This document shows positions 14,640-43,721 of a stretch of DNA of 60,886 nt, piece by piece. This DNA is from Lysobacterales bacterium (GTDB lineage Bacteria > Pseudomonadota > Gammaproteobacteria > Xanthomonadales > SZUA-36). Numbering within the stretch: the first letter of the stretch is position 1; each line of letters begins with the position of its first letter. Under the pieces are notes generated by a model. That model searched no databases. It saw only the letters and a list, made by a program, of their open reading frames with translations, and was not told where the DNA came from. The translations under genes and the position numbers were made by a program. The stretch spans positions 1 through 60,886 of the forward strand of contig JABAAB010000122.1 in assembly GCA_014238945.1 (NCBI GenBank). The letters run 5' to 3'.

Positions 14640-14645
14640 CCGTTT

Positions 14646-22396: not shown

Positions 22397-22449
22397 TTGG
22401 TAACTATCAGCGCCCCGAACAGAATGAAAACAAGACACAACTATGGGTG

Positions 22450-22514: not shown

Positions 22515-22531
22515 GGGACCTGAGTCACAAC

Positions 22532-23500
22532 ATGAGACACGACAAGTTCACGCGCCGCCGAATGCTCAAGACGCTTGCCATGGTCGGCTGCGGCGTGGCC
22601 GCAAGTCCTCCACTGGCACGGTTTGCCACCGCCGAATTCATTAAGACTATCGACCTTAAAATGCAGGCGGAGATCATTTTCGAACCGCATATTCCCACCG
22701 CCCTGCGACGGTCCCTGCAATACGCGGGAGATAAAGGCTTCGTGGCATCGATGCCACAACTGCTCCATGCCCGGACGAACGCGTCTTACGACAACATCAT
22801 CTGGAACACCTGGTTCACGGCAAATTCCGAAGAAAGTGTGGTGTCTACAAAGCAGGGAAATCGTGTCGTGGTGGCGGTCCACGGTGGCGGCATATTTGGG
22901 TCGCCGGCGCGATTCGAAAAAAGTTTTTATGCGGATCTGGACCGTTCGAATTCAGAGGGCATTACCGGACAGACTGCCGCCAAGATTTCCACTCGGGAAG
23001 CCCATGATCTGCTGAAAGGCAAATTACCCGATGGCAGCGAAATTCCGATGTACCTGTTCAATGAATTCAAACGGGGCATTACTGACTTGCCAATGCGCTA
23101 TGGTGTCGTGCTGGACTTCGAACTGGCCAAGAGTGCCAAAAGAGGCTTCGAAAGTTTTGATGTCCTGAAGGATGAACCGAACATGATCGTACGCGCCGGG
23201 GGTGTCGAGCCACTGGCCGCTTATCTCGACAAGTTCAGGCACCGCAACAATACGGAATTGATGGGGAACTGGCACCCGTACTTGCGGATCGATCCGAATC
23301 AGCCGCAGACCCGCATATTGTTCCTGGCGGGCAATAAGGGGGGCGTCGGTAGCGAGGGTAAAGACGAGGGCCCGGGCTGGGGTTATGACGCGGAATACGG
23401 TCTGGGTGGCGATGCCAGCATGGTCGGCATGGCCCGCTATGTTGCGGTGGCACCGCGTGATGTATCGACCAGTTTGAGAAATCTGGATTTCGAAATCTGA
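22532..23500 (+). CDS. Unknown paralogous family, copy A, Tat-exported
   Basis: 322 residues. The N-terminus TRRRMLKTLAMVGCGVAAS is a twin-arginine signal. The family core follows: SMPQLLHAR, YDNIIWNTWF, VHGGGIF, a FNEFKRGI element, MIVRAGGVE, GNWHPY, a glycine-rich NKGG segment, GYDAEYG and a C-terminal RYVAVAPRDVSTSLRNLDFEI tail. I do not recognise this family. The conserved His, Trp and acidic residues look enzymatic, but no function is claimed. It is ten bases before copy B, so the two are probably one transcript. Copies C, D and E at 39-44 kb lack the signal. Confidence 0.8.
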   Translation: MRHDKFTRRRMLKTLAMVGCGVAASPPLARFATAEFIKTIDLKMQAEIIFEPHIPTALRRSLQYAGDKGFVASMPQLLHARTNASYDNIIWNTWFTANSEESVVSTKQGNRVVVAVHGGGIFGSPARFEKSFYADLDRSNSEGITGQTAAKISTREAHDLLKGKLPDGSEIPMYLFNEFKRGITDLPMRYGVVLDFELAKSAKRGFESFDVLKDEPNMIVRAGGVEPLAAYLDKFRHRNNTELMGNWHPYLRIDPNQPQTRILFLAGNKGGVGSEGKDEGPGWGYDAEYGLGGDASMVGMARYVAVAPRDVSTSLRNLDFEI

Positions 23501-23509
23501 GGTATTTTT

Positions 23510-24505
23510 GTGAAGCAAGTTGAACCGACTCCATTGTGGAAAAGAAAAACACTGACCCGCCGCCACCTGGTCAAGGTGCTGGCATCGGTTGGCGTCGGCG
23601 CAGCAGCCAGCCCGCTGTTTTCACCGCTCGCGTCAGCAGCCAAATCCGATAATACAAGCAGCACCAGAATGGTGGCGGCCATATTCTTTGAGTCGTATAT
23701 AACCGTCGCATTGCAGCGGGCCCTGCGATACGCAGGTGAGGATGGCTACGTGGCATCGATGCCACAACTGCTGCACGCCCGGGTGAACGCCTCCTACGAC
23801 AATATCATCTGGAACACCTGGTTTACATCACATAGCGAGGAAAACGTGGTGACGACAAAGCAGGGAAATCATGTCGTGGTAACAGTCCATGGTGGCGGCA
23901 TATTTGGGTCGCCGCAGAGAATTGAGAGGAGTTTGCGTGCGGACCTGGACCGTTCGAATCCGGAAGGCCTCACCGGACAATACGCCCCCAAGATTTCCCG
24001 CACCGAAGCCCACGACCTGCTGGAAGGCAAGCTGCCCGATAGCACAGAACTCCCGGTATTCGCGTTCAATGAGTTTAAACGAGGCATCAAGGACTTGCCA
24101 CGGCGCTATGCCGTTGTGCTGGATTTCGAGATGGCGAAGAATTCAAAAAGTGGTTACGAAAATTTCGATATCTTGAAGGATGATCCGAACATGATCGTTC
24201 GGGCCGGGGGAACCGAACCGCTGGCGGCGTATCTCGACAAGGCAAGGGATCGTAACAATACAAAATTGACGGGTACCTGGCACCGCTACGGCCGGATCGA
24301 TCCGGATCAGCCCCAGACCCGTATACTGAGACTGGCCGGTAACAAAGGCGGCAAGGGCAGTGAGGGCAATGACCTGGGGCTGGGCTGGGGATATGATGCG
24401 GATTACGGAATCACAGCCGCGGGCATCATAGGCATGGGTCGCTATGTTGCGGTTGCTCCGAGAATTATGTCGAAAAGTTTGCAGTACCTGGACTTCGAAC
24501 CCTAG
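23510..24505 (+). CDS. Unknown paralogous family, copy B, Tat-exported
   Basis: 331 residues from a GTG at 23510 with GAGGT six bases upstream. A Tat signal (LTRRHLVKVLASVGVG...) is followed by about 20 spacer residues and the family core. All motifs of copy A are kept: SMPQLLHAR, YDNIIWNTWF, VHGGGIF, MIVRAGG, GTWHRY, NKGG, GYDADYG and RYVAVAP. It is a tandem duplicate of copy A, with enough divergence that the duplication is not recent. It should act in the periplasm if the Tat signal is real. No recognised domain. Confidence 0.8.
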   Translation: MKQVEPTPLWKRKTLTRRHLVKVLASVGVGAAASPLFSPLASAAKSDNTSSTRMVAAIFFESYITVALQRALRYAGEDGYVASMPQLLHARVNASYDNIIWNTWFTSHSEENVVTTKQGNHVVVTVHGGGIFGSPQRIERSLRADLDRSNPEGLTGQYAPKISRTEAHDLLEGKLPDSTELPVFAFNEFKRGIKDLPRRYAVVLDFEMAKNSKSGYENFDILKDDPNMIVRAGGTEPLAAYLDKARDRNNTKLTGTWHRYGRIDPDQPQTRILRLAGNKGGKGSEGNDLGLGWGYDADYGITAAGIIGMGRYVAVAPRIMSKSLQYLDFEP

Positions 24506-24561
24506 GCAATAGACGCTAAACTGTACAACCGCATCAGAGCACGATTCACGAGGAAATTACC

Positions 24562-26532
24562 GTCAGCAACTCACCTTCATTACAGACTGCATTCGACCGG
24601 ACGCTCGGTTTTCTGCATGCCGGAGAAATTGAAACGGCAGCAGGGTTTTGCCGTGAAGAACTCGGCAAAGAACCCGGGAACGACAAGCTCCGTCTTCTGT
24701 TCGGGACGATACTGGTAAGGCAGAGCAAATTTACCGAAGCCGAAATCGAGTTGCGCCAGGTGCTGTCACGCAGACCCAATGTTGCCAAAGCAAACCGGGA
24801 ACTCGCACACGCACTGATTGCGCAAGGCCGCTTTGATGAAGCCATTGCCAGCTACAAACGCGTGCTTGAACTAACACCTGAGAACCCCGTTGCCTATCGC
24901 GACCTGAGCATGGCTTATAAGGGGCTCGGGCAGATGAACGAAGCCTACGAGGTACTTGAAGCATCGTTCAGGCTCGACCCGAACCGCGAGGAGCTTGAGC
25001 ACGCAATCCAGCACCTCTTTGCCGGTGACTTCGGTAATGCCGAAACCCTTTGTCGAGGGGTACTGCACAAAGATCCAAACAACGTCAATGCCACACGCCT
25101 GCTGGGCGAAGTGGCTGCGGAACTCGGCAATCAGAAACTGACCATACAGATGCTGCGGAATTCGATCCAATTGGAACCGCGTTTTTTTGGTGCATATATT
25201 GAACTGGCTGGTGAACTGCTGGACACAGATGAGCTGGAGGAATGCCATGCGGTATTACAAGAGGCAATAAAACTGCAGCCGGAACTTGCTTTGCCACGCG
25301 CGCTGCTCGGTATCCTGCACAACAAGGCAGGCCGATTCGAACAAGCAGCCGAAGTATTCAGAACAGTCCTGGAAAAACATCCTGATCACGGTGTGAGTCT
25401 TACCGGTCTTGGTCACGCGCTGAAGACCATCGGCCGTGGTGAGGAGGCCATTGAAATCTACCGACACTGCATCAAGGGGTTCCCGGCCTTTGGAGAGGCA
25501 TACTGGGCACTCGCAAATCTAAAGACGTTTCGCTTCAGCGATGACGAAATTGCCACAATGGAGGAAAATGTCGACGATGGAAATCTGCTCGAGGAATCGC
25601 GTGTCAATTTAAATTACTCACTCGGAAAAGCCTACGAGGATCGCGGCAGTTATGATCAGGCGTTCTATCGATACAACCGCGGAGCCAAACTCAGGTGGTC
25701 AAAAGAAAATTACGATCCCGCTCATACCCGGACCGAACACGATGAGATCATAACAACGATTACGTCTGAAGTTCTGCGGCAAAACACAGGCCTTGGCAAT
25801 CCGGACCCGGCACCGATTTTCATTGTCGGACTACCACGCTCGGGCTCGACCCTGATTGAACAGATTCTGGCCAGCCACAGCGAGGTCGACGGTACCCACG
25901 AACTGCCTGATTTACCCTATGCGATTAACGCAATAAACCAGCAGAAACCGGCAGGTCTCGACTATCCGCAGGCGTTACCACTCTATGGTGAAGCACTTGC
26001 GACAATTGGGCGCCAGTACATTGCCTCGACCCGTCGTTATCGTGGCGACGCCCCGTTTTTCACCGACAAAATGCCGGGTAATTTCGCGAGCGTCGGTCTG
26101 ATCGCTCTCATCCTGCCCAACGCCAAAGTCATTAATGCGCGCCGGAACCCGCTAGATAGCTGTATGAGTTGCTACAAACAGTTGTTCTACAAGGGACAGA
26201 AATTTTCTTACGACCTGGTCAAACTTGGCCAATATTACCTGGAATATCAGCGCATGATGGATTACTGGAATGCGATCCTGCCCGGCAAAGTGTTGGACGT
26301 TCAGTACGAGGATATGGTGGCGGACCAGGAAAATCAGACCCGCCGGCTACTGGAGTATTGCAATCTGGACTGGGAGGAGAATTGCTTACGATTTTATGAG
26401 ACCGATCGTGCAGTGGTTACAGCCAGTTCGGAGCAGGTCCGACTGCCGATTTACTCAGGGTCGGTCAATTCATGGCGCCGGTTCGAGAAACATCTTGGGC
26501 CACTGATCGAAGTGCTGGAGCCCTTACTTTAA
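24562..26532 (+). CDS. TPR-sulfotransferase (copy 3), apparent GTC start
   Basis: About 656 residues. The frame is open from the stop at 24517, but no ATG, GTG or TTG occurs in it until TTG at 24751, which would remove the first TPR units. Comparison with copy 2 places the start at GTC 24562, seven bases after AGGA at 24551-24554. ATT codons at 24544 and 24556 are alternatives. TPR units fill about 1-400. The sulfotransferase domain has FIVGLPRSGSTLIEQIL and INARRNPLDSCMSCYKQLF. The paralogue at 17233 is very similar through the catalytic half. Confidence 0.82.
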   Translation, partial: VSNSPSLQTAFDRTLGFLHAGEIETAAGFCREELGKEPGNDKLRLLFGTILVRQSKFTEAEIELRQVLSRRPNVAKANRELAHALIAQGRFDEAIASYKRVLELTPENPVAYRDLSMAYKGLGQMNEAYEVLEASFRLDPNREELEHAIQHLFAGDFGNAETLCRGVLHKDPNNVNATRLLGEVAAELGNQKLTIQMLRNSIQLEPRFFGAYIELAGELLDTDELEECHAVLQEAIKLQPELALPRALLGILHNKAGRFEQAAEVFRTVLEKHPDHGVSLTGLGHALKTIGRGEEAIEIYRHCIKGFPAFGEAYWALANLKTFRFSDDEIATMEENVDDGNLLEESRVNLNYSLGKAYEDRGSYDQAFYRYNRGAKLRWSKENYDPAHTRTEHDEIITTITSEVLRQNTGLGNPDPAPIFIVGLPRSGSTLIEQILASHSEVDGTHELPDLPYAINAINQQKPAGLDYPQALPLYGEALATIGRQYIASTRRYRGDAPFFTDKMPGNFASVGLIALILPNAKVINARRNPLDSCMSCYKQLFYKGQKFSYDLVKLGQYYLEYQRMMDYWNAILPGKVLDVQYEDMVADQENQTRRLLEYCNLDWEENCLRFYETDRAVVTASSEQVRLPIYSGSVNSWRRFEKHLGPLIEVLEPLL

Positions 26533-26540
26533 AAATCTCG

Positions 26541-26594
26541 ATTGCACCAGGTGATCCGTCGACAAACCTGCAAAACCTGAATTTCGAAATTTAA
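26541..26594 (+). pseudogene. C-terminal relic of the unknown family (relic 2)
   Basis: Starting nine bases after the TPR-sulfotransferase stop, this stretch encodes IAPGDPSTNLQNLNFEI-stop. It matches the family tail VAPRDVSTSLRNLDFEI at 11 of 17 positions, in frame to its own stop. The rest of the gene is missing. The sulfotransferase gene between copy B and this tail may have replaced a third tandem copy. Confidence 0.7.
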
Positions 26595-26657
26595 GGGGGT
26601 AGTATGCATTTAAGTAAACACTCGCTATTGGACAAATCTTTCACTATCTAAGGAGAG

Positions 26658-28286
26658 ATGATCATAAAAACCAAATTATTGACACCCTTTATGATCGTTC
26701 CAGCCCTGGCACTGTTCGTGCTCGTTTTGACAAGCTGTTCTCCTGCGACCGACGAGTCTGCTGAGGGTACCCACGGTGCTACACCCCAACCAGCAGCCCT
26801 GTCAGCCAGCCTTCCCAAACGTGGCGGTACACTGCGCACTGAATCAAACTTTATACCTTATGTGGCGGACCCGGCCACGGATGGCATCGGTACCGGCCAG
26901 GTCGGGTTGTTGATCGCTGAAGCCCTGGTATGGGTTGGGGAAGACGGCGTCCCGCAACCGAACCTGGTTAAATCATGGGAGGTCAGCGAGGACGCGAAGG
27001 AGTGGACGCTGCACCTCCGGGAGGGAGTTAAATTCAACAACGGCAAGCCCTTTGGCGCCGATGACGTGATCTGGAATCTGCGCCACTGGCTGGACCCGGA
27101 TACCGGATCGGCGATGGCAACCCGGCTCAATTTTTTGTCACCCGCCGGCATTGAGAAGGTAGATGACCTGACGATCAAGCTGCATCTTGATCGCCCCTAC
27201 ACCAACGTGCTGCTCTCGCTTTATGGCTATTCGAGCATGATCGCGCCCGAGGGCGGCTGGAAGGATTTTTACAGCGGCGACCCCGCAGATGCGGTCGGGA
27301 CAGGGCCGTTCCTCCTGCAATCCTTTTCTCCCGACGAGCGGATGGTGCTGGTACGGAATCCGAACTATTGGCAGCTTGGTGCCGATGGCCAGCCATTGCC
27401 TTACGTAGACAAGGTCATAGTCACTTCAGGTTGGGATGACGCCGCGCGACTCGCTGCCCTCATTGGAGGCGAGGCAGACTATCTGGCCCCCGGTGAGGGA
27501 ATATTGCCGGTACTCAAAAGGTATGCCGATAAAATCACTGTCAAGACCTATTACACCGGATGGGTTACGCCCATCGTGATGCGCACCGACATGCCACCCT
27601 TCGACGACGTACGCGTGCGCACTGCGCTCAAGTTGGTCCAGGACCGCAAAAGAATACGCGACCTCGTAATGCCGCTGGGCCCGGTGGCCTACGACCACAT
27701 GATACCGTCCGGTGACGGCGCCTATTGTCCCACCACCGATGTCAACCGCGAACAGGATATCGAACAGGCCAGAGCCCTGCTGGCCGAGGCCGGTTATCCC
27801 GATGGAATCGAGCTCGAACTCGCTGTCCCTAACATAGACTTTCGTCCGAACTTCGCTCAGGTGTATCAAGAGATGGCAGCGAAGGCAGGCATCACTGTCA
27901 ACATCAATATCCTGCCCAATTCGGCTTTCTGGGACCAGTGGATGCAGTGGCCGTTTGCCACCAGCGGCTTCAATGGCCGGGTTCCGGCAACGGCGAACAT
28001 GAATCTGGCGCTTCGCTGTGGAGGCGACTGGAATGAATCGCACTATTGCAACGAGCAACTCGACGCCCTTTTGGAGGCGGCCGATAGCGAACTGAATATT
28101 GAGAGACGTCGGAACCTGTATTGCCGGATCCAGACCATCATGCAGGAGGACTCCGGATATATTATACCCTTCTGGGCGGCTACGTTCAGCGCCAGCCCAA
28201 GCAACCTGCATTTTCCAAGCAACTGGCCCAGAGATACCTGGCACTGGCATCTTTACTGGTTTTCGAACCAGGCTGAACGACGCTAA
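26658..28286 (+). CDS. Family 5 extracellular solute-binding lipoprotein
   Basis: 542 residues. The signal ends in a lipobox (LVLTSCS near residue 27), so it is a lipoprotein of the periplasm. The SBP_bac_5 pattern is clear: LVKSWEVSEDAKEWTLHLREG at about 105-125, then VKFNNGKPFGADDVIW, which marks peptide, nickel or opine binding proteins of Dpp/Opp type. AAGGAGAG lies just before the ATG. It is the first gene of a complete ABC importer. The ligand cannot be read from sequence; peptides or opines are most likely. Confidence 0.92.
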   Translation: MIIKTKLLTPFMIVPALALFVLVLTSCSPATDESAEGTHGATPQPAALSASLPKRGGTLRTESNFIPYVADPATDGIGTGQVGLLIAEALVWVGEDGVPQPNLVKSWEVSEDAKEWTLHLREGVKFNNGKPFGADDVIWNLRHWLDPDTGSAMATRLNFLSPAGIEKVDDLTIKLHLDRPYTNVLLSLYGYSSMIAPEGGWKDFYSGDPADAVGTGPFLLQSFSPDERMVLVRNPNYWQLGADGQPLPYVDKVIVTSGWDDAARLAALIGGEADYLAPGEGILPVLKRYADKITVKTYYTGWVTPIVMRTDMPPFDDVRVRTALKLVQDRKRIRDLVMPLGPVAYDHMIPSGDGAYCPTTDVNREQDIEQARALLAEAGYPDGIELELAVPNIDFRPNFAQVYQEMAAKAGITVNINILPNSAFWDQWMQWPFATSGFNGRVPATANMNLALRCGGDWNESHYCNEQLDALLEAADSELNIERRRNLYCRIQTIMQEDSGYIIPFWAATFSASPSNLHFPSNWPRDTWHWHLYWFSNQAERR

Positions 28287-28295
28287 ACGACACAC

Positions 28296-30088: not shown

Positions 30089-30103
30089 AAGGAAGTCCGT
30101 TAT

Positions 30104-32179: not shown

Positions 32180-32223
32180 GTGAATAAGATAGCTGAGGAT
32201 CACTGGCTAGACCCAGGCACGGA

Positions 32224-32254
32224 GCGCCAAAGCTACCGGTTCACGCTTTGGCGC
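32224..32254. repeat. Perfect 10-bp inverted repeat, hairpin before the PrpD-family gene
   Basis: GCGCCAAAGC and GCTTTGGCGC flank an 11-base loop (TACCGGTTCAC). There is no T-run, so a simple terminator is unlikely. It lies between the ATPase and MmgE/PrpD genes and ends about 26 bases before the chosen ATG. It could be an mRNA stabiliser or processing site, or an operator. Confidence 0.6.
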
Positions 32255-32280
32255 ATGTCCTGATGAGGAAAACAACCTTT

Positions 32281-33630: not shown

Positions 33631-33648
33631 CAATAACGGAATAGCAAA

Positions 33649-34410
33649 ATGACCGACTTCTATGACCGCCTGAGCCCCGTGTTTCATCACAACATGGGCT
33701 ACGACTGGGAGGCGGGGATGCGCTGGGAAGGCGAATGGCTCGACCACTTCCTGGCGGAGCAGTTGGGAGGCCCGGGTCCCTGGTCAGTCCTTGACTGCTC
33801 CTGCGGAATCGGCACCCAGGCAATCGGCCTGGCGCTTCACGGCCATCAGGTCCATGCCACGGACTTGAGCCCCGTGTCAGTCGACTGCGCCCAGCGCGAG
33901 TCAACCGAATTCGGCGTCACCATCACTTTCGGTGTCGCTGACTTTCGCAATCTGAGCGAAACCATCTCCGCTACCTTCGAGGTCGTCATTTCGTGTGACA
34001 ACTCGTTCGCGCACTGTCTCCACGATGACGATCTCTCGGCCGCTTTGGCCAGCATCAAGGAGAGACTCAAACCCGGTGGCCTCCTGCTTTTAAGCATCAG
34101 GGACTACGATGCGCTGATTGCAGACAAACCCACCTTCAACAGCCAGCACGTCGAAGATAAACCGGACGGTCGCCGTATTGTCTTTCAGGTATGGGACTGG
34201 GCAAACGACGGCTGCAGCTACCGCCTCAATCAATTCCTCATCAGGGAGTATGGCGGCGGCTACGAGATAAAGCATTTCGAGACGGAGCTCCGGGCGCTGC
34301 TGCGTGACGAGATTATTTCCGCCGTCCAGGACGCGGGATTCGAGGAGGCATGCTGGCACGATCCTGAAGCAAACGGCTACTATCAACCAATCGTGACCGC
34401 CCGCAACTGA
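33649..34410 (+). CDS. Glycine-methyltransferase-like SAM methyltransferase (copy 1)
   Basis: 253 residues. Motif I is LDCSCGIGTQAIGLAL near residue 46, followed by HATDLSPVS. VISCDNSFAHCL and LLLLSIRDYDAL match the core of glycine/sarcosine and dimethylglycine N-methyltransferases, in which related motifs line the amine site. It is closely related to the gene at 41103 over the whole length. In both places a member of the unknown family (here a relic, there intact) follows directly. It may methylate a small amine or carboxylate; substrate not known. Confidence 0.88.
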   Translation: MTDFYDRLSPVFHHNMGYDWEAGMRWEGEWLDHFLAEQLGGPGPWSVLDCSCGIGTQAIGLALHGHQVHATDLSPVSVDCAQRESTEFGVTITFGVADFRNLSETISATFEVVISCDNSFAHCLHDDDLSAALASIKERLKPGGLLLLSIRDYDALIADKPTFNSQHVEDKPDGRRIVFQVWDWANDGCSYRLNQFLIREYGGGYEIKHFETELRALLRDEIISAVQDAGFEEACWHDPEANGYYQPIVTARN

Positions 34411-34478
34411 TGAGTGACATGCGCGTTTAGTCGGTGCAAGAGACTCCGAGTGCGTACATCGAATTACAGAACATCCAA

Positions 34479-34736
34479 ATGAAAGCGACCATCATCTTCG
34501 CTTCCTACCACCCCAAGGCCTTGCAATGGGCCCTGCAACATGCGGGAGACGATGGTCTCGTTACATCGATGACGTTTTGACCATCCCACGCCTCACCGAT
34601 GAAAATCTCTACGGCTAGGACACGAAAGGGGTCTGGGTGGCGATGCCAGAGCAGGGTGGGTATGGTCCGCCATGTCGCTGTTGCACCCCATGATGTGGTC
34701 ACCAGCCTGCATTTCCCTGATTTTGAACCTTCTTAG
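34479..34736 (+). pseudogene. Internally deleted copy of the unknown family (relic 3)
   Basis: Begins at ATG 34479 with 33 codons matching the family N-terminus (KATIIFASYHPKALQWAL, AGDDGLVTSM) and then hits a stop. From ATG 34662 a 24-codon stretch, VRHVAVAPHDVVTSLHFPDFE, matches the family C-terminus and ends at 34736. Some 220 internal codons are missing. The gene sits after methyltransferase copy 1 exactly as copy D sits after methyltransferase copy 2, so it is the dead member of a duplicated gene pair. Confidence 0.85.
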
Positions 34737-34755
34737 AGCCTCACAGGAAAATTGT

Positions 34756-36300
34756 CTAAAAGTCAGTTGGCGCCCCGCCCTGCTCCTTGCGCAGCGCGAC
34801 AAAAGCTTCCAGTTCTTCACGAATGGCCTCATCCATCGGTGGGGCCTTGAATTCCTTCAGTATTTGCTTCCACTTACTGTTGGCTCGTTCCGGTGTGGCC
34901 ACACTTCCGGTTTCCTCCCAGGTCTCAAAGTTTCTAAGATCACTCAGAAAGGGTGCATAGAATGCGGTTTCATAACGTTCCAGCGTGTGACTGGCGCTGA
35001 AGAACTGTCCGTCGGATCCGACTTCCCGGATGGCGTCGAAAGCGATTTCGTCTTCACCGGCGCTCATGGGTTGCATGTAGTGAATCATTTGCTGGACGGT
35101 CTCACAGTCCATAAGGAATTTCTCGTAACTGGCGCACAGTCCACCTTCCAGCCATCCGGCGGCATGATAAACAAGGTTGGTCCCGGATGATATGCAGGCC
35201 CACAGTGAAAACGCACTCTCCCAGGCCGCCTGGGCGTCCGGAGTGTTGGCTGCGCAGGCATTGGATGCGCGCAGTGGCAATCCGTAGAAGCGTGCCATCT
35301 GGCCCGAGATCTGCGTCGCACGCATGTACTCCGGCGTACCAAAGGCCGGGGCACCACTGCTCATGTCAACGTTTGAGGTGAATGAGCCGAACATGACAGG
35401 GCAGCCCGGGTTGATAAGTTGCAGCAGCGCAATTGCCGACAGGGCTTCGGCTGTCTGCTGCATTACCGCGCCAACGACTGTTATCGGGGCCATTGCACCG
35501 GAGAGTGTGAACGGGGTCAGAATCACCGGCTGTCCACGGCGTGCCATTCTCATTGCGCCGTCCAGCATATTGAAGTCCCATTTAAGGGGTGATCCGGAGT
35601 TGACGTTGGTGAACATCCTGGGACTGGCTTCGAATTCCTCATGTGACAGGCCGGCAGCGATGCGGACCAATTCCATGCCATCCTCTATGCGCTCCTTGCC
35701 CAGGCTGTAGGCATGGACCACCTTGTCGGTCAGGGTCAGTGCATCAAACAGACAATCAAGGTGACGCACGGACGGATGAATATCCAATGGCTCTACGGGG
35801 TAGCCGAGCACCATGTGCATACAATTGAAATACTGGGTCAGCTTGATCAGGTCCTGGTAACTTTGCCTGTCTCCAACACGACGACCCCGATCGAGGTCGG
35901 AACAGTTCGGTGGGCTGCCCACATTACCAAACAGCACACGATCACCACCCATCTGCACCTGGCGGGCCGGGTTTCTCGGTGTAATGTGAAACATTGGCGG
36001 TGCTTTTTTGACCTGCTCCATGATGAAGTCACGACCCATACGGACGTTGTCTGAGTCAGGGTTCACGATGCAACCGGCCCTGGCGAAGATATCCTTCGCT
36101 TCCTCGCACAGAATTTCAATACCAATCTCTTCAAGCACACGCATGGCACCATCGTGTATGGCATGCACCCCATCCTCATCGAGGGGCTCGGTGGGTGCAT
36201 CGGAATTGACCGGCAGCGCCCAGGGGTTCTGTTTCACGGCAGCTGCGGTTCGGCGTGTATTACCTGATCGTCCTCCATGCCTTCGGCCTCTTCGGGTCAC
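34756..36300 (-). CDS. MttB-family (trimethylamine/betaine) corrinoid methyltransferase, non-pyrrolysine
   Basis: 514 residues from the GTG at 36300, which has GGAGGA five bases upstream; the TTG at 36312 overlaps that site. Residues such as GAMAPITVVGAVMQQTAEALS near 255 and SNACAANTPDAQAAWES near 345 are typical of the MttB superfamily. The frame has no internal amber codon, so it belongs to the non-pyrrolysine branch, which includes glycine betaine (MtgB) and other quaternary-amine demethylases. Those need a corrinoid protein, not seen here. It follows the fused permease by 24 bases and probably acts on the compound that permease imports. Confidence 0.88.
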   Translation of the reverse strand: MTRRGRRHGGRSGNTRRTAAAVKQNPWALPVNSDAPTEPLDEDGVHAIHDGAMRVLEEIGIEILCEEAKDIFARAGCIVNPDSDNVRMGRDFIMEQVKKAPPMFHITPRNPARQVQMGGDRVLFGNVGSPPNCSDLDRGRRVGDRQSYQDLIKLTQYFNCMHMVLGYPVEPLDIHPSVRHLDCLFDALTLTDKVVHAYSLGKERIEDGMELVRIAAGLSHEEFEASPRMFTNVNSGSPLKWDFNMLDGAMRMARRGQPVILTPFTLSGAMAPITVVGAVMQQTAEALSAIALLQLINPGCPVMFGSFTSNVDMSSGAPAFGTPEYMRATQISGQMARFYGLPLRASNACAANTPDAQAAWESAFSLWACISSGTNLVYHAAGWLEGGLCASYEKFLMDCETVQQMIHYMQPMSAGEDEIAFDAIREVGSDGQFFSASHTLERYETAFYAPFLSDLRNFETWEETGSVATPERANSKWKQILKEFKAPPMDEAIREELEAFVALRKEQGGAPTDF

Positions 36301-36336
36301 AATATCCTCCAATTGGTCAAGATTCGAATGCCGGTC

Positions 36337-38100
36337 TCAGTTATTGCTTTGCTGGCTGCCCATACGCCGCAACCATTCAGCGGTGCCGAGCAAAGTAGCA
36401 GAGCCAAGAAAGATACACGAACCAAGAGCCAGAACGACCGGCAGGGTTTCCGGGAATCGGGTCTGGGTAAACATGAAGACCGGCAAGGTCACATGATTGC
36501 CACCCAGGAACAAGGCATACAGAAATTCATCGAAAGATGCTGTAAACGACAGCAACAAGGATGCAATGATGCCGGGCAGAATCAATGGAAAAGTGATCCG
36601 CCAGAATGTCATCCAGCCGTTTTCACCCAAATCCTGTGCCGATTCTTCAAGGCTCCTGGAAAATCCCTCGAGACGGGACATGACGACCAGCATCGAAAAA
36701 GGAAGTGTGGCAACCACATGGGCAATACCGATGGTCCACAGCGAAAGCTGAATCTTCATCGCACTGGCAACCACCAGTAAACCAACCGCCAGGATGATAC
36801 CGGGCATGACCATCGGGAGCAGTATGAAGCCTATTGCCAGACCGCGACCGGGCAGGCGATAGCGGGTCATTGTCCTGGCTGCAATGGTCGCCAGCGAGGT
36901 TGAAACGATCGCAACCGGCAGGGCGACCTTGAAGCTGTTTCCAAGTGCCGTCAACAGGCCGGGTTGCTCCAGGATTCCTGCATACCACCTGGTCGTAAAT
37001 CCCTTCAGTGGCAATGCCATTTGAATACTGTCGTTAAATGAGAAAATGGGCAGCATCAAGGAAGGAATGTAGAGAAACATGAGGTATAGAACCACATAGA
37101 TAAAAAGTGGACTGAACCGGCGCTTATTCAAGACGTTGGTATTCGAGGCGGAAGTGACTGCTTCCATTTCCCGTCGCTTCACCGTGCCCCGTTGGGTAAA
37201 CCAGATAAAGACCAGTGCAAGGCTGGTGACCGTAAACATCATCACGATGGTCAGTGCAGAACCCATCGGCATATTGTTGACCAACATGAATTGCGCCGCG
37301 ATCACCTGACCGATCATGCCATTGGGTGGACCAACCATCATCGGCGTGACATAGTCGGCAACCACCGGGATGAATTGAATCACGGTTGCAGCGATCACCC
37401 CGGGCATTGATAACGGCAAGGTGACCCTAAGGAAAGTCCTCACAGGGTTTTCTCCGAGATCTGCTGCTGCCTCCAGCAGTGAACGGTCTATCTTGGATAG
37501 CGACAGGTATATTGGCAAAATGGCAAACGCAGCCCAGGCGTGGACCAGGGTGAGGATCACCGCAAACTTGCTGTAGAGCAGAAATTCAAGTGGGGCCTGG
37601 ATAAACCCCAATCCTTCGAGACTGGTGTTGATGACACCATTGTTACCCAGCATGATTTTCCAGGCGAGTACCCGCAACAGGTAGCTGGTCCAAAATGGCA
37701 GATTGATCAGGATCAGCCAGGTCATGATGTTCTTCCTGACCCTGAATGCCAGGAAATAGGCAACGGGATAGGCCAGCATGATGGTGATGAAGGTCACCGT
37801 CGCCGACATCCAGACTGATCTCAAGAGCAGCTTGCCGTATATCCACTTGTCAAAGAATGTTTCGTAGTTCTTTAACGTAAAGGTCTTGTCGATTGTGACG
37901 TAATCTTGTGTCCAGAAGCTGTAGACAACGAGTGTGAAGATGGGCAATGCCAGCGCACAGATCATCACCAGCAAGGTAGGTGAAAGCAGCGTGTAGCCAC
38001 GCAGCCATTCGTGTTTCAGGAAAAAAGTCCGAAAACGCGTTATCCAGTTTCGATCATTGGCCCGGGCGGCGTGAATTGCAGGAGGTAAGGCGTTGGTCAC
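36337..38100 (-). CDS. Fused PotB-PotC-type ABC permease
   Basis: 587 residues made of two complete binding-protein-dependent permease domains: about 1-300 and 320-587. Each has its own EAA loop (DLGENPVRTFLRVTLPLSMPGV; DLGENGWMTFWRITFPLILPGI). In most bacteria these are separate PotB and PotC subunits of the spermidine/putrescine/opine class. Starts with GTG overlapping the iclR stop (GTGA). The matching binding protein (39981) and ATPase (49102-50202) are encoded elsewhere in the window. Confidence 0.9.
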   Translation of the reverse strand: MTNALPPAIHAARANDRNWITRFRTFFLKHEWLRGYTLLSPTLLVMICALALPIFTLVVYSFWTQDYVTIDKTFTLKNYETFFDKWIYGKLLLRSVWMSATVTFITIMLAYPVAYFLAFRVRKNIMTWLILINLPFWTSYLLRVLAWKIMLGNNGVINTSLEGLGFIQAPLEFLLYSKFAVILTLVHAWAAFAILPIYLSLSKIDRSLLEAAADLGENPVRTFLRVTLPLSMPGVIAATVIQFIPVVADYVTPMMVGPPNGMIGQVIAAQFMLVNNMPMGSALTIVMMFTVTSLALVFIWFTQRGTVKRREMEAVTSASNTNVLNKRRFSPLFIYVVLYLMFLYIPSLMLPIFSFNDSIQMALPLKGFTTRWYAGILEQPGLLTALGNSFKVALPVAIVSTSLATIAARTMTRYRLPGRGLAIGFILLPMVMPGIILAVGLLVVASAMKIQLSLWTIGIAHVVATLPFSMLVVMSRLEGFSRSLEESAQDLGENGWMTFWRITFPLILPGIIASLLLSFTASFDEFLYALFLGGNHVTLPVFMFTQTRFPETLPVVLALGSCIFLGSATLLGTAEWLRRMGSQQSNN

Positions 38101-38915
38101 CCGCGCTTCCTGGATTTTTGTTTATCCGGCGGTACTGCGCCACCGATCGCGACTGAAATCAAGTTAGCTGCTTTCAGAACATCCGGTGCAATCTCGTCCA
38201 GCATTTCCCTGGTTAGCCGGTTCGAGGGGCCGCATACACTGATCGCTGCAGCAACCCTGCCCAATCCATTGACCATTGCAACACCAATACCATTGACACC
38301 TGGTTCATTTTCCTCTTCATCAATGGCGTACCCCAACTCCAGAAACCTGGCCAGTTGCGCCTCCAGCGTATCGACATCTGTAATCGTGTTCTCTGTTTGT
38401 TGCTCCAGGCCACGCAGGCGGTATACGGTCCGTCTCATTGGCTCATCCCACATTGACATGAACGCCTTGCCCAGGGCAGTACAATGATACATAGACCTCC
38501 AGCCAGCATAGGACGTGGCATGCAGAATCTGGGAACCCTGGAAACTGTCTACCACTGACAAATCCAGGAGATCGGGCAGACCCAGGTTTACCGTCTCATT
38601 GGTCTTCCTGCAAAGTTCAGCCAGTATCGGCCTTGCCAGGTGCGAGATATGCAGTCTTTGCTGAACGATTCGTCCCAATTCGAGGTTACGTAATCCCAGC
38701 CGGTAACGCCTGGTTTTAGCGTCCTGTTCAATGAACCTGAGTGTGACCAGCGAGGCCAGCAAATTGAACGCGGTGGTCTTGTTCAGTGCCGTCGCTCTGC
38801 TGATCTCACTCAAGCCCACGCCATCCTCACTGCCGGCGGCGATCGTGTCGATAATGGCACTGGCGCGCGCCAGTGATTGAATTCTCGGTGGCTTGTTGGA
38901 TGCCGTTGCAGTCAT
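38097..38915 (-). CDS. IclR-family transcriptional regulator
   Basis: 272 residues. An N-terminal winged helix-turn-helix (VGLSEISRATALNKTTAFNLLASL near 33-56) precedes the IclR effector domain; GYAIDEEENEPGVNGIGVAM near 193-212 matches the conserved effector-pocket segment. It is first in a minus-strand operon with the fused permease and the MttB-type gene and divergent from family copy C. The palindrome at 39082 is in the shared promoter gap, which makes this protein the nearest candidate to bind it; that is inference. Confidence 0.92.
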   Translation of the reverse strand: MTATASNKPPRIQSLARASAIIDTIAAGSEDGVGLSEISRATALNKTTAFNLLASLVTLRFIEQDAKTRRYRLGLRNLELGRIVQQRLHISHLARPILAELCRKTNETVNLGLPDLLDLSVVDSFQGSQILHATSYAGWRSMYHCTALGKAFMSMWDEPMRRTVYRLRGLEQQTENTITDVDTLEAQLARFLELGYAIDEEENEPGVNGIGVAMVNGLGRVAAAISVCGPSNRLTREMLDEIAPDVLKAANLISVAIGGAVPPDKQKSRKRG

Positions 38916-39121
38916 AGTCAGTATTTATCCCTTGATTCAATAATGTATTACGCTCTGGCACCCTTGGAAAAGTGCCATAATCATTGACAATATGCAATAA
39001 TAATGAGTAAATCCCATATCTAAGTGAAAATTAACAGGGCAATTACCCGTCTTCAAATTTTATCATAATGTAGATAGCGGTGTATATTATACTATAGCAG
39101 TGGAAAAAGGACGCAATTAGC
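38916..39121. promoter_or_regulatory. Divergent promoter region iclR / copy C with operator-like palindrome
   Basis: AT-rich 206-base gap. GTATATTATAC at 39082-39092 is a perfect palindrome in the context GGTGTATATTATAC, closely matching the sox site GGTGTACATTGTAC. A weaker reverse match, CATAATGTAG, lies at 39064-39073. The palindrome is about 30 bases before the copy C start codon and would overlap its promoter or early transcript. Confidence 0.55.
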
Positions 39122-39973
39122 ATGACCGACATCAGATGGGAAGCAAAAATCATCTTCGAGCCACACGTTCCCAATGCGTTGCGGCAGGCTCTTGATTATG
39201 CCGGTGAGGAAGGCTACGTCGCCTCCATGCCCCAATTGCTACACGCCAGGGCAAACGCGCCTTACGACAATATTATCTGGAATACCTGGTTCACATCCAA
39301 TACCGAGGAAAGCGTGGTAACTACCCCGCAGGGAAACCACGTAGTGGTGGCCATTCATGGTGGGGGGATATTCGCATCTCCTGAGCGCTTTGAGCAAGTC
39401 TATCGTGCCAGTGTGGATCGTTCCAATTCCGATGGTTTTACAGGTCAGTATGCGGGCAAGATCAGTCACAAGGAAGCGCGCAACGTACTTGAAGGCAAAC
39501 TGCCGGATGGTACCGAGGTACCGGTATACCCATTCGATGAATTCAAGCGGGGAATTGCAGACCTGCCGATACGTTATGGCGTTATCCTCGACGTGGAGAT
39601 TGCCAGGAAATCCACCCGGGGTTACGACCCCTTTGAAGTCCTGAAAGATGAGCCAAACATGATCGTGCGTGCCGGCGGAGTTGAAGCGAACGCAGCGTAT
39701 CTCGACAAGGCCAGGGACCGGCACAACACAGAAATCATGGGTAACTGGCATCCCTATAACAGGATCGACCTGGATCAACCGCAAACCCGAATACCGTTCC
39801 TGGCTGGTAATGAAGGGGGACTGTGTACTGAAGACGATGACGACGATCTGTACGGCTATGATGCGGAATATGGCATGGGTGGCGACGCCTGTATCCATAA
39901 CATGGCCCGTTATGTTGCCGTAGCGCCTGTAGATGTGTCGACCAGTCTGCGAAACCTGGATTTCGACCTCTGA
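39122..39973 (+). CDS. Unknown paralogous family, copy C, no signal peptide
   Basis: 283 residues, close to the minimal family core. SMPQLLHAR is at 35-43, YDNIIWNTWF at 48-57 and HGGGIF at 79-84, followed by FDEFKRGI, MIVRAGGVE, GNWHPY, an acidic run before GYDAEYGMGGD, and the tail VAPVDVSTSLRNLDFDL. AAGGA lies ten bases before the ATG. It lacks the Tat signal of copies A and B and should be cytoplasmic. It is eight bases before a polyamine-type binding-protein gene. No known domain recognised. Confidence 0.82.
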   Translation: MTDIRWEAKIIFEPHVPNALRQALDYAGEEGYVASMPQLLHARANAPYDNIIWNTWFTSNTEESVVTTPQGNHVVVAIHGGGIFASPERFEQVYRASVDRSNSDGFTGQYAGKISHKEARNVLEGKLPDGTEVPVYPFDEFKRGIADLPIRYGVILDVEIARKSTRGYDPFEVLKDEPNMIVRAGGVEANAAYLDKARDRHNTEIMGNWHPYNRIDLDQPQTRIPFLAGNEGGLCTEDDDDDLYGYDAEYGMGGDACIHNMARYVAVAPVDVSTSLRNLDFDL

Positions 39974-39980
39974 GAAACAC

Positions 39981-41072
39981 ATGGGAAAAATCGACAATCG
40001 CTCTCGCCGGGTTACGGTCCGTTTAACAGCATTGGTCGGCATGGTCATGCTGGCGAGCCTGCTGATGTCATGCGAGGACAGCGGCGACGACAATAATGTC
40101 GACCTGTCGATACTGGAATGGAGTGGCTACCAGCATGCCAGGTTCCATCCCGAGTACAACGCCAAGTACGGCAGCCAACCGGATGTTGCATTGTTTGCAG
40201 AGGAAAAGGATGCCATGCAGAGGATGCGCAATGGGTACCGGGTTGACCTGGTGCACCTGTGCGTTAACTCCCTTAATGAGGCCCGCGATTCTGGGCTGAT
40301 CAAACCACTTGATATCAGCCGGATTCCACGTTGGGCCGACATCAGCCCCAGCTTGCTTGAAATAAAGGATCTCAAGGCCGAAGGTGAGTATTGGCTGGCC
40401 CCCTGGGAATGGGGGTATTCGACCGTCGCTTACAACCCTGAGGCGGTCGAGATTGAGAACCCTACCTGGAAAATATTCATCAACCCGACTTTTAAAGGTA
40501 AAACTGCGCTCACCTCATCGCTTGGCGTCAATCACATTATTGCCGGGGTCATCGGCGGTTGGGCAGACCCACTCGACCCTACCGAAGCAGAAATGGCAAT
40601 GGCACCTGACATATTCAGGATGATGCTCGAGAATGCGCGTTTCATCTGGTCTGACGGCACTCAGTTAGAACAGGCCTGGGTTTCCGGCGATGTCCATATT
40701 TCCTACGTTTTTGGCAGCGCATCAATGAGGTGGAAAAGGACCGGTATTCCGGTCAGGGTAGTGCAACCATTGATGACCTGGATGTGTGGTCTGTCCCTCA
40801 GCGCCAACGGCGCAGGCTCAGAACAGCAAGCATATGACTACATCAATGCCATGTTGGATCCCGTCAGTGGCGTGGAATTATTCGAGGAGTACCGGTACGG
40901 GCACGGTAATTCCAGGACCGTGGAATTGCTCGATCCTGATGAGATCGAGGGAATGGGCATCAATGACCCGGCCGGTTTTTTCGACCGTGGTCTGTTTACC
41001 GGCTCAACACCACCGGCAAAAGAGGCCAGACTGTACCAGCTTTGGTTCGAGGCCCAGGCCGGGCTCGACTAG
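39981..41072 (+). CDS. PotD-like periplasmic substrate-binding lipoprotein
   Basis: 363 residues from the ATG at 39981 (the frame stays open into copy C). Lipobox LLMSCE near residue 28. The segment LSILEWSGYQHARF and the later WLAPWEWGYSTVAYNPEAV are typical of spermidine/putrescine-type binding proteins (family 1/PotD), which recognise polyamines or related cations. It is the most likely partner of the fused permease at 36337 and the ATPase at 49102. It is followed by methyltransferase copy 2. Confidence 0.87.
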   Translation: MGKIDNRSRRVTVRLTALVGMVMLASLLMSCEDSGDDNNVDLSILEWSGYQHARFHPEYNAKYGSQPDVALFAEEKDAMQRMRNGYRVDLVHLCVNSLNEARDSGLIKPLDISRIPRWADISPSLLEIKDLKAEGEYWLAPWEWGYSTVAYNPEAVEIENPTWKIFINPTFKGKTALTSSLGVNHIIAGVIGGWADPLDPTEAEMAMAPDIFRMMLENARFIWSDGTQLEQAWVSGDVHISYVFGSASMRWKRTGIPVRVVQPLMTWMCGLSLSANGAGSEQQAYDYINAMLDPVSGVELFEEYRYGHGNSRTVELLDPDEIEGMGINDPAGFFDRGLFTGSTPPAKEARLYQLWFEAQAGLD

Positions 41073-41102
41073 GATTCGGTTTATGTCAATCGTGGTGACG
41101 AA

Positions 41103-41879
41103 ATGAGCAATCCGGTAACAGCATTCTACGACGGGCTGAGCCCGGAATACCGTGACAACATGGGATGGGACTGGGATGCAGCCGTGGGCAAAGAAGGTGC
41201 GGCACTCGATCATTTCATCACGCTTCAATTGGGACACAAGGGCCCTCATTCCCTGCTGGACTGCTCCTGTGGAATCGGTACCCAGGCCATCGGCCTCGCG
41301 CTGAAGGGTCATCGGATTCATGCTTCAGACCTGAGCCCGGTGTCAATAGAACAAGCCTCCGGAGAGGCCACCAGGCTCGGTGTCAACATGACCTTTTCAG
41401 TGGCCGATTTTCGTGAATTGGGCGACACAATCTCCGATACCTTTGATGTGGTGCTTACCTGCGACAACTCGATCGCACACTGCCTGAAAGACGACGACCT
41501 CAATGCTGCCCTGGTGAGCATGAAGACGAGGCTCGACCCCAATGGCCTTCTGTTACTGAGTATGCGGGACTACAACGCACTGATCACAGACAAGCCGCGA
41601 TTCAACAACCAGCACGTTCAGGACAAACCAGACGGTCGCCGTGTCGTGTTTCAACTTTGGGACTGGGCGGATGATGGCCGCCGCTACAAGATGAATCAAT
41701 TCCTGATCAGGGAAATTGAAGGCAGTTATGATTTCAAACATTTTCATACCGAGCTGCGTGCCTTGAAACGCAATGAAATAATCACCGCGGTACGGAATGC
41801 GGGATTCGAGGAAGTCAGCTGGCACGTCCCCGAATCCAGTGGCTACTATCAACCGATAGTGACCGCCCGTAAACCATAG
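41103..41879 (+). CDS. Glycine-methyltransferase-like SAM methyltransferase (copy 2)
   Basis: 258 residues, a full-length paralogue of the gene at 33649. LDCSCGIGTQAIGLAL, HASDLSPVS, VLTCDNSIAHCL, LLLLSMRDYNAL and the C-terminal SSGYYQPIVTARK align without gaps of note. It precedes family copy D by 31 bases. The repeated pairing with the unknown family at two loci suggests that the two products act in one pathway. Confidence 0.88.
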   Translation: MSNPVTAFYDGLSPEYRDNMGWDWDAAVGKEGAALDHFITLQLGHKGPHSLLDCSCGIGTQAIGLALKGHRIHASDLSPVSIEQASGEATRLGVNMTFSVADFRELGDTISDTFDVVLTCDNSIAHCLKDDDLNAALVSMKTRLDPNGLLLLSMRDYNALITDKPRFNNQHVQDKPDGRRVVFQLWDWADDGRRYKMNQFLIREIEGSYDFKHFHTELRALKRNEIITAVRNAGFEEVSWHVPESSGYYQPIVTARKP

Positions 41880-41909
41880 CTAAAGGCACCGGGAACAAAT
41901 GAATTCACG

Positions 41910-42818
41910 ATGGAAAATATCATGATGAACGACGTCAAAATGGAAGCGCAAATTATCTTTGAGGCCCACCTCCCGAACGCCTTGCGTCAGGCCCTGGAAT
42001 ACGCAGGTGAAGATGGCTTTGTTGCATCCATGCCGCAATTGCTACACGCCCGGGTTGACGCCGACTACAACAATGAAATCTGGAACAACTGGTTCTTCAC
42101 ATCGAATTCCGAAGAAAGCCTGGCGACCACGAGTCAGGGAACCCGGGTGGCCGTGATGGTTCATGGCGGTGGGATTTTCTCGACACCGGACAGATTCAGG
42201 AAGCTGTATCTTTCAAACCAGAGCCGTGCCAGCAAAACAGGCTTTACCGGACTGTTTGGTGCCAAGATCACCGAACACGAAGCACGGAACCTGGTTGAAG
42301 GCAGACTGCCCGACGGCACCGAAATCCCGATTGTCCCGATCGATGAACTGATTCGGGGTACCACCCAACTGCCGCGCCGCTACGCCATCGTCATGGATTT
42401 TGACCTGGCAAAAAATTCGAAACGTGGCTATGCAACATTCGATGAGCTGAAAAACGACCCCCTGATGATCGCACGCGCCGGTGGTGTCGAAGCGGCGGCA
42501 GCGTATCTCGACAAGGCGCAGGGCTATTACAACACCGAGGTGATGGGGAGTTGGCACCGTTTCAATGACATGAATCCGGATCAGCCCCAGACCTACATAC
42601 AATTCCTGTTCGACTGTCTTGGTGGTGCGAGTAGAAAAGTTGATCCGGCCAGCCGGATGCAGGGTGACTCGGATAGCTGGTTCACCCATTACCGGATATC
42701 AAGAGACTCGGGGTTTGGTCTGCGTGGCGACAGCGCAATGATCAACACGGCCCGCTATGTCGCTGTCGCACCCCGTAATGAGTCGACCGGTGTAAGAAAA
42801 TTATCCTTTATGGCTTGA
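41910..42818 (+). CDS. Unknown paralogous family, copy D
   Basis: 302 residues if started at ATG 41910; ATG codons at 41922 and 41925 are also possible. Core motifs are kept in modified form: SMPQLLHAR, YNNEIWNNWFFTSN (an extra residue compared with copy C), VHGGGIF, MIARAGGVE and GSWHRF. The usual GYDAEYGMGGD segment is replaced by HYRISRDSGFGLRGD, and the NKGG loop by CLGGASRK. This makes it the most divergent intact copy. Cytoplasmic by lack of a signal. It is followed by copy E after 27 bases. Confidence 0.8.
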   Translation: MENIMMNDVKMEAQIIFEAHLPNALRQALEYAGEDGFVASMPQLLHARVDADYNNEIWNNWFFTSNSEESLATTSQGTRVAVMVHGGGIFSTPDRFRKLYLSNQSRASKTGFTGLFGAKITEHEARNLVEGRLPDGTEIPIVPIDELIRGTTQLPRRYAIVMDFDLAKNSKRGYATFDELKNDPLMIARAGGVEAAAAYLDKAQGYYNTEVMGSWHRFNDMNPDQPQTYIQFLFDCLGGASRKVDPASRMQGDSDSWFTHYRISRDSGFGLRGDSAMINTARYVAVAPRNESTGVRKLSFMA

Positions 42819-42845
42819 AAAACCCCACGAACCCAAGAGCGCAAT

Positions 42846-43721
42846 ATGAACTCGACTGATGTAAGAATGGAAGCGGAAATTTTTTACGACTCCTACCTTC
42901 CCGATGCCCTGCAGCGGGCGCTGGAGTACGCAGGTGAAGATGGGTATGTGGCTTCCTTGCCGGCTTTACTGCACGCCCGGGTGAACGCAGCCTACGACAA
43001 TATCATCTGGAACACCTGGTTTAACCCCAATACCGAGGAAAGCCTGATCAGGACACCACAGGGCAATCATGTCGTGGTGACGGTTCACGGTGGCGGCATA
43101 TTCGACTCCCCGGCCAGGTTCACAAGACTGTTCCTTGCGGATACCAGCCGATTTTGCGAAATCGGATTCACCGGCCTGTTCGCAGCCAAGATTACCCGGC
43201 GCGAGTCATACAATGTGCTGGACGGAAAAATGCCGGACGGCAATGAAATACCGGTCTACCCGTTTGACGAGTTTCGCAGCGGTATCAGGAATTTGCCCCG
43301 ACGTTACGCCGTGGTCATGGACTTTGAGACAGCAAAGCAATGCAGAAGCGGTTACGAACCCTTTGAAACTCTGAAGGAAGACCCGTTAATGATCACCCGC
43401 GCAGGCGGGGCTGAAGCGGCCGAAGTCTATCTCGACAAGGCGAGAGATCGGCACCACACGGTAAAAATGGGATTCTGGCACCCGTTCAACAGCATCAATG
43501 ATCTGGACCAGCCCCAGGCGCGTATTCCTGCCCTGGCTGGCAACAAAGGTGGTGTGGGCACCGAGGATAACGATGGTCATCTTTACGGTTATGACGCCGA
43601 ATATGGCATGGGTGGAGACTCCAGTATCCACAATACCAGCATGATCAACGTTGCCCGCTACGTTGCGGTCGCACCAACCAAGGTTGAAAGGAGTTTGAGA
43701 AATCTGCCTTTCAGGGCCTGA
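42846..43721 (+). CDS. Unknown paralogous family, copy E
   Basis: 291 residues. The LLHAR motif is kept but the preceding part reads SLPALLHAR rather than SMPQLLHAR. YDNIIWNTWF, VHGGGIF, FDEFRSGI, MITRAGGAE, GFWHPF, NKGG and GYDAEYGMGGD are present, followed by an insertion (SSIHNTSMIN) before RYVAVAP. No signal peptide. Copy E is followed by three aldo-keto reductase genes. Function unknown. Confidence 0.8.
   Translation: MNSTDVRMEAEIFYDSYLPDALQRALEYAGEDGYVASLPALLHARVNAAYDNIIWNTWFNPNTEESLIRTPQGNHVVVTVHGGGIFDSPARFTRLFLADTSRFCEIGFTGLFAAKITRRESYNVLDGKMPDGNEIPVYPFDEFRSGIRNLPRRYAVVMDFETAKQCRSGYEPFETLKEDPLMITRAGGAEAAEVYLDKARDRHHTVKMGFWHPFNSINDLDQPQARIPALAGNKGGVGTEDNDGHLYGYDAEYGMGGDSSIHNTSMINVARYVAVAPTKVERSLRNLPFRA

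Follow-up and report, generated by a model that had tools for sequence, protein, structure and literature searches.

In one diversity-generating retroelement (DGR) of nanoarchaea the variable protein is AvpA, which adopts a C-type-lectin fold (PDB 5IOO; PMC5006420, available part). Its variable region spans residues 181-203 and is braced by inserts 2 (residues 41-57) and 4 (residues 120-179), according to the available part of the same paper, where AvpA relatives outside DGRs have already been published from Woesearchaeota together with a single marine metagenome homologue (PMC5006420, Table 3). A full-text search, with most subscription journals outside its scope, recovered no published description of a bacterial branch of AvpA with multiple paralogues. 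Here we examine five paralogous genes (copies A to E) in a contig of a Lysobacterales bacterium (JABAAB010000122.1), all 60,886 nucleotides of which we call the window. Their products almost certainly belong to the AvpA type of C-type-lectin fold.

The original prediction of five intact paralogues with a shared full-length core was borne out: all five open reading frames (ORFs) are present, open and placed as predicted on the forward strand, and their products, 283-331 amino acids long, align end to end. Copies A (22532..23500, class A) and B (23510..24505, class B, with a GTG start) form a tandem pair, and each carries a twin-arginine translocation (Tat)-like signal, TRRRMLK in A and TRRHLVK in B. 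Copy C (39122..39973, class C), for which a structure was modelled, shows no Tat motif, and copy D (41910..42818, class D), whose loop is both longer and different, is followed by its tandem partner E (42846..43721, class E). Identity to copy C is 69% in A, 65% in B, 55% in D and 63% in E. The motifs that had been quoted for the core are in place overall, with exceptions in D (SRDSGFG for GYDAEYG, WHRF for WHPY), B (WHRY and GYDADYG) and E (WHPF). The count of five is correct for the window but overlooked two decayed pieces. One of them (34467..34727, +) has an early stop and retains an N-terminal piece (34467-34574) and a C-terminal piece (~34630-34727) but not the middle; the other (~22441..22517, +) lies immediately upstream of A and is the decayed remainder of the 3' end of another copy. 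The genome as a whole (4.85 Mb, 126 contigs, ~98% complete) holds seven full copies when queried with copy C (each at E 2.6e-99 or better), the two beyond the window lying side by side on contig C36 (58088-58924 and 58938-59786). These are conserved globular proteins and not the product of a repeat, as had been proposed.

The match to AvpA was recovered independently at the level of sequence and of fold. A profile built from the five copies and run against all PDB sequences produced a single match up to E 10, which was AvpA (E 6.6e-16). With a profile of 49 family sequences AvpA was matched at E 5.3e-17 and the next PDB sequence at 0.64 (hmmsearch). The sequence match falls in two stretches, profile positions 8-96 and 138-232, which correspond to AvpA residues 5-89 and 97-188. 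The fold was tested with a predicted model of copy C, derived by AlphaFold2 from a 49-row alignment, which was confident (mean predicted local distance difference test score, pLDDT, 87.8; predicted template modelling score, pTM, 0.87); a model of copy D from its single sequence reached a pLDDT of only 30.2. Foldseek aligned the copy C model to 5IOO over 264 columns (E 9.7e-17, probability 1.00, TM 0.83 normalised by target, 22% identity), and the second match had an E of 0.47. Of the published AvpA motifs, GXXVVVYAH is present nearly whole (as GNHVVVAIH), RFXGV appears as RYVAV, and HPXXXPFXG retains only the P and the last G (EPNMIVRAG). The original prediction recognised no family and held that a confident match to a described one would speak against it. 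The profile search, structure prediction and fold search that it proposed all lead to AvpA over most of the core, and the claim that no family is known consequently fails.

Family databases were less informative. No Pfam or NCBIfam model reached its cut-off for the five copies, PHROGs gave them only weak matches (three at 0.17 or worse), and PADLOC yielded only sub-threshold matches among the 49 members (DruG2 in one of them, at E 0.041). Matches to CHASE7, ZSWIM1-3, CILP and TAT_signal_seq were all sub-threshold, the last below its cut-off, and were dismissed. A periplasmic solute-binding protein was also rejected, given that the fold is AvpA-like and not two-lobed and that no binding-protein family was matched in Pfam. 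C-type-lectin enzymes of the formylglycine-generating enzyme (FGE) type have conserved catalytic cysteines. None of the 49 sequences supplies an invariant or nearly invariant cysteine position, which argues against FGE-type chemistry. Calcium-dependent C-type lectins are characterised by the calcium motifs EPN/QPD and WND; among family members D-Q-P-Q is frequent and acidic loops are seen.

Profile alignment to AvpA, together with PMC5006420, provides a residue register. In it, residues G71-H79 of copy C correspond to AvpA residues 67-75, H79 to H75, G185 to G147 and F226 to F185, and T222 is placed at G181, the start of the AvpA variable region. We defined the loop as residues 229-262 of copy C (39806..39907, +), which make up the larger part of the loop found where AvpA has that region. 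The segment is acidic in copy C (net charge -10), and its net charge is -4 in A, -2 in B, 0 in D and -5 in E; its length ranges from 34 to 47 residues in the eight rows measured. Over 46 rows in eight classes (the truncated L022 and two rows of class I being excluded from the 49), mean loop identity was 0.62 for members of the same class and 0.36 across classes, leaving a gap of 0.27. When 34-residue windows were slid along the alignment the loop showed the largest gap, approached only by windows that overlap it; the best non-overlapping window, at 81-114, reached 0.18. Nonsynonymous difference was lower in the loop than in the rest of the gene in 12 of 13 chosen orthologue pairs. From this constraint within classes and divergence between them, it appears that the position randomised in AvpA is retained here by members of one class and changes from class to class. 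By analogy with AvpA, the loop is a putative ligand site, and we think it a likely one.

The scaffold around the loop holds 31 columns that are strictly invariant over the 49 sequences. Those that differ in AvpA include N50, W53, E62, E63, G80, G82, R183 and Q221 (copy C numbering). By the register, N50 and W53 fall in AvpA insert 2 and R183 in insert 4, E62 and E63 follow closely on insert 2, and Q221 shortly precedes the variable region. Four other invariant residues (T107, E118, G125 and P134) lie outside the stretches aligned with AvpA. Invariant residues common to AvpA (G31, A42, G71, H79, P87, D157, G185, G186, Y193 and H210) may be structural, judging from the alignment.

Given the kinship with a DGR protein, it is important to consider whether a retroelement acts on these genes. 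A search for reverse transcriptase (RT) with PF00078 (RVT_1) had no matches in the genome that contains the window, of which about 2% may be missing; the same search matched 3 of 14 control genomes. Among 17 other genomes that carry the family, seven had an RT match at E 0.001 and six had one over the cut-off, and none had an RT on the contig of a family copy, though these contigs are short. A search for an adenine-biased template repeat revealed the decayed pieces as the only non-coding repeats of the family gene, at 40 bases or longer, in positions 20000-46500. These were ruled out as a template, being without adenine bias (in comparisons with copy A, the remnant side has adenine at 1/9, 1/11 and 3/15 mismatches). 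Codons of the form AAY make up 90/1816 (5.0%) in the loop and 512/12304 (4.2%) elsewhere, with no clear enrichment. We consider it very probable that no active DGR acts on the family copies.

Phylogenetic groups of the family have recurring places among neighbouring genes. Class A is followed by class B, in several loci after a TonB-dependent receptor; class C precedes a PotD-like protein in six loci; class D is followed by class E after a methyltransferase; classes F and G are found elsewhere; and class H occurs in four loci, two of them labelled Alphaproteobacteria. When the loop columns were removed from the analysis, A, B, D, G and H, and the groupings A+B, D+E and F+G, remained clades. 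Adjacent copies were present in 13 of 24 loci (L013 counted; L029, in which one gene is split, left out). In L027 (7434-9077) a single frame of 548 amino acids contains two family domains, the first degenerate and the second complete; it arose either by natural fusion or by deletion within a tandem pair. Of the rows of classes A and B, 9 of 12 are preceded by a twin-arginine-like motif, as against none of the 37 others, and the NCBIfam Tat model scores below cut-off for copies A and B.

The family is sparsely distributed. A pattern scan of 84,980 species genomes revealed 22 loci in 17 genomes, labelled as Gammaproteobacteria (nine), Woeseia (one), Proteobacteria (two), Alphaproteobacteria (two), 'bacterium' (two) and Chloroflexota (one), with 1-8 matches per carrier genome, fragments included. 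A wide vertical family was rejected, as the genome of the window was the sole carrier among sets of 61, 369 and 398 genomes, which partly overlap. Around genome G432, 2 of 38 genomes carry the family, G432 itself being one, and around the Chloroflexota carrier only that genome does so among 400; in the scans of 369, 398 and 400 genomes, up to six candidates per genome were scored. The locus of the Chloroflexota-labelled metagenome-assembled genome (MAG; L024) has a single class A copy. This groups with a copy from another MAG of the RHO1 series, a gammaproteobacterial one, and reflects either horizontal transfer or mis-binning. A viral or plasmid origin was likewise rejected: no relative was found in viral contigs (by pattern scan), phages or plasmids, and there was no fold match in BFVD at E 0.001.

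The gene neighbourhood in the window supports the catabolic surroundings that had been proposed. A TonB-dependent receptor (19521..22331, +; PF00593, PF07715) lies upstream of A and B. Further along come an S-adenosylmethionine (SAM) methyltransferase (33649..34410, +; best NCBIfam model glycine/sarcosine N-methyltransferase, far below cut-off), an MttB-family methyltransferase (34756..36312, -; PF06253), a fused PotB-PotC-like ATP-binding cassette (ABC) permease (36337..38100, -; NCBIfam models below cut-off) and an IclR-family regulator (38097..38915, -). Beside copy C is a PotD-like solute-binding protein (39981..41072, +), whose ORF opens at 39933 and whose start at 39981 and lipoprotein signal were assigned by reading, followed by a second methyltransferase of the glycine/sarcosine-methyltransferase-like kind (41103..41879, +) directly before D. 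Beyond E lie three aldo-keto reductases (43735-44781, 44785-45804 and 46692-47702, +; the second identified by cluster only), a PhyH-family protein (45831-46688, +), two cupins of the dimethylsulfoniopropionate (DMSP)-lyase family (PF16867; 47578-48285 at E 5.8e-17 and 48448-49128 at E 6.8e-29, +) and a PotA-like ABC ATPase with a TOBE domain (49102..50355, -). The statement that every copy has a transporter, methyltransferase or oxidoreductase beside it holds for C (PotD-like), D (methyltransferase), E (aldo-keto reductase) and A (TonB-dependent receptor); B precedes a tetratricopeptide repeat (TPR)-sulfotransferase. The two SAM-type methyltransferases (33649 and 41103) are 68% identical, the second being followed by D and the first by the decayed copy at 34467..34727. 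This likeness and the shared gene order indicate that a unit of methyltransferase plus family gene was probably duplicated.

In the upstream part of the cluster, positions 14073-19257 hold a row of genes for an Asp/Asn beta-hydroxylase-like protein, a tryptophan-halogenase-family protein, a methylenetetrahydrofolate-reductase (MTHFR)-like protein (16320..17189, +; PF02219) and a TPR-sulfotransferase, the last three of which recur with A/B and MttB in L020. TPR-sulfotransferases (17143-19257 and 24751-26532) flank the group of receptor, A and B on both sides. Positions 53843-57671 hold no long genes, just a series of short ORFs.

Neighbours were counted over 24 loci (the window, C36 and the 22 scan loci) as blastp clusters, with families read from one or two members each. 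The PotD-like cluster was present in 10 loci, the fused PotB-PotC-like permease and the glycine/sarcosine-methyltransferase-like protein in 9 each, aldo-keto reductase in 6, IclR and TonB-dependent receptor in 5 each, and the DMSP-lyase-family cupin in 4 (in L023, L025 and L027 besides the window). A homocysteine S-methyltransferase cluster was found in 6 loci (5 after length filtering) and MttB in 2, the same two that have the MTHFR-like protein. The PotD-like protein stands directly beside a family copy in 9 of the 24 loci, on its downstream side in six and on its upstream side in L018, L019 and L022; in L025 it follows a cut-off copy. Loci of class H also contain Rieske, DAO-type oxidase, hydantoinase B, arginase-family and CN-hydrolase proteins. 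In L013, L017, L024, L026 and L027 the core neighbour set was absent within the stretch covered. The F/G loci have no member of this set among the neighbours scanned, and those of L014, L016 and L021 are various housekeeping and transport genes. A frame in L015 (4300-5709), close to family copies, partially matches Pfam PF03536 (VRP3).

These patterns suggest a model in which the classes of the window are hard-wired binding proteins of C-type-lectin fold, independent of any DGR, that serve the uptake and demethylation of cationic N-methyl compounds; we give this model about an even chance of being right. Each paralogue would combine the shared invariant set (among them N50, W53, E62, E63, R183 and Q221) with a fixed loop of its own before strand b5, at the place of the hypervariable putative ligand site of AvpA. 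Diversity would thus arise by gene duplication and loop divergence and not by mutagenic retrohoming. Classes A and B would be exported by the Tat path and act as a periplasmic pair behind the TonB-dependent receptor. Copy C and the pair D and E would remain cytosolic, and we infer that they share one operon with the PotD-type protein, the methyltransferase, the aldo-keto reductases, the PhyH-family protein and the DMSP-lyase-family cupins; tandem partners could function as complexes. The constant floor of the fold would read a moiety common to all ligands and the class-specific loop the remainder. The ligands of the window classes might be betaine-, polyamine- or guanidine-like compounds, cationic and N-methylated, which the Pot-type importer would take up and enzymes of the MttB or homocysteine-methyltransferase type would demethylate. 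We put forward a cationic or N-methyl amine as ligand tentatively, with somewhat less assurance than the model as a whole.

A number of observations weigh against this model. Once the loop columns are removed, classes C, E and F do not form clades, which makes the class contrast partly circular. Rows recur among the orthologue pairs, of which three differ by no more than 0.005 and several are saturated at synonymous sites. Confidence in the copy C model is lowest in the loop, where residues 233-247 have a pLDDT under 50. The function of AvpA itself is given as unknown in the available part of PMC5006420, so that the binding of a ligand is proposed by analogy of fold. The names of the methyltransferase, permease and PotD-like proteins derive from NCBIfam scores below cut-off, and neighbour counts have no random-gene control. 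Arginase-family, CN-hydrolase and hydantoinase B neighbours in L018 and L022 point to amines generally and not to one substrate. In F/G loci no methylamine gene was found among the neighbours scanned, and the F/G pair on C36, unlike the copies of the window, has carbohydrate-type uptake genes nearby (a sodium-solute symporter, a glucokinase and a sugar-type ABC importer) as well as a beta-lactamase-family protein, in surroundings (45000-62090) that also hold a cupin and a TonB-type barrel. The C36 surroundings speak against a single ligand type for the whole family, and the ligand proposed is consequently limited to the window classes; class F/G probably serves something else. Finally, several of the invariant polar residues would suit an enzyme equally well.

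The last point leads to the most serious alternative, in which the copies are enzymes built on the AvpA scaffold, with E62, E63, H79, R183, H210 and Q221 forming a catalytic or metal site and each class acting on a different intermediate of one pathway. The many polar residues strictly invariant over 49 sequences, the position of C, D and E among catabolic genes with short gaps, and Tat-like signals in A and B (which would fit proteins folded, sometimes with cofactor, before export) are all compatible with catalysis. However, H79 and H210 also occur in AvpA and are perhaps structural, the conserved cysteines of FGE-type chemistry are missing, and no enzyme appears among the convincing matches of either Foldseek against PDB or the 49-sequence profile against PDB sequences. 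The original prediction had left the choice between enzyme and ligand-binding protein undecided. A C-type-lectin scaffold with a class-specific loop at the putative ligand site of AvpA favours binding, and we lean towards a binder while granting the enzyme a substantial, if clearly smaller, share of probability.

The copies could also be former targets of a DGR, or cryptic ones served in trans, that is, hypervariable receptors whose retroelement has been lost or lies elsewhere. The closest solved relative is indeed a DGR variable protein, 19 of 22 groundwater AvpA homologues come from putative DGRs (PMC5006420, available part), and the most class-divergent segment of the family coincides with the variable-region position. 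However, the lack of RT both in the nearly complete genome and, within short contigs, beside the copies of the other 17 carriers, the absence of adenine bias, and a loop that is more and not less constrained in 12 of 13 pairs leave this explanation very improbable; current DGR activity is largely refuted. A wholly new family and fold would explain why no Pfam, NCBIfam, PHROGs or PADLOC family exceeds its threshold, and has next to no chance of being correct now that sequence and fold matches to 5IOO refute it.

The bacterial branch bears on two questions about AvpA, what the protein does and where its scaffold came from. With fixed loops, stable orthologues and informative neighbourhoods, it offers a route to the ligands of this C-type-lectin subclass, and proteobacterial loci that apparently process methylated nitrogen compounds gain a component not yet characterised. 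More speculatively, and in our estimate rather unlikely, the retroelement-diversified scaffold of AvpA may descend from, or may have given rise to, bacterial hard-wired small-molecule receptors with a constant floor and class-specific lid, which would act in periplasm and cytosol as paired modules of an island for methylated-amine uptake and demethylation. If true, duplication would have built in this branch the natural 'germ-line' equivalent of the binding repertoire of a DGR, and the branch would reveal which kind of ligand the scaffold first served.

The branch can be compared with four described systems. Marine systems of glycine-betaine demethylation (MtgBCDE, Bhmt) involve no AvpA-like proteins in the available part of PMC12478193; they resemble family loci in the MttB- or homocysteine S-methyltransferase-family neighbour and in the MTHFR-like protein of two loci. 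Mtd, TvpA, TaqVP and FGE-type proteins display a binding site on the same broad C-type-lectin fold and represent, unlike AvpA, the FGE subtype (PMC6328139 and PMC5006420, available parts); none was among the best 50 Foldseek matches. The woesearchaeotal relatives are, like the family, AvpA-like proteins unattached to a DGR, for which the available part of PMC5006420 gives no operon context, paralogue classes or loop analysis. AvpA itself is set apart from the family, which is bacterial, has no RT found with it, bears Tat-like signals in two classes, has a much longer stretch at AvpA insert 3, and replaces the 23-residue variable region with a longer loop that is conserved within classes. However, the two share the Gly-x-x-Val-Val-Val...His strand and the GG-E, Y-L-x-K and G-x-W-H elements, and F226 of copy C aligns with a nonvariable residue of AvpA, F185. 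The pair allows one scaffold to be compared as diversified by duplication and as diversified by a retroelement.

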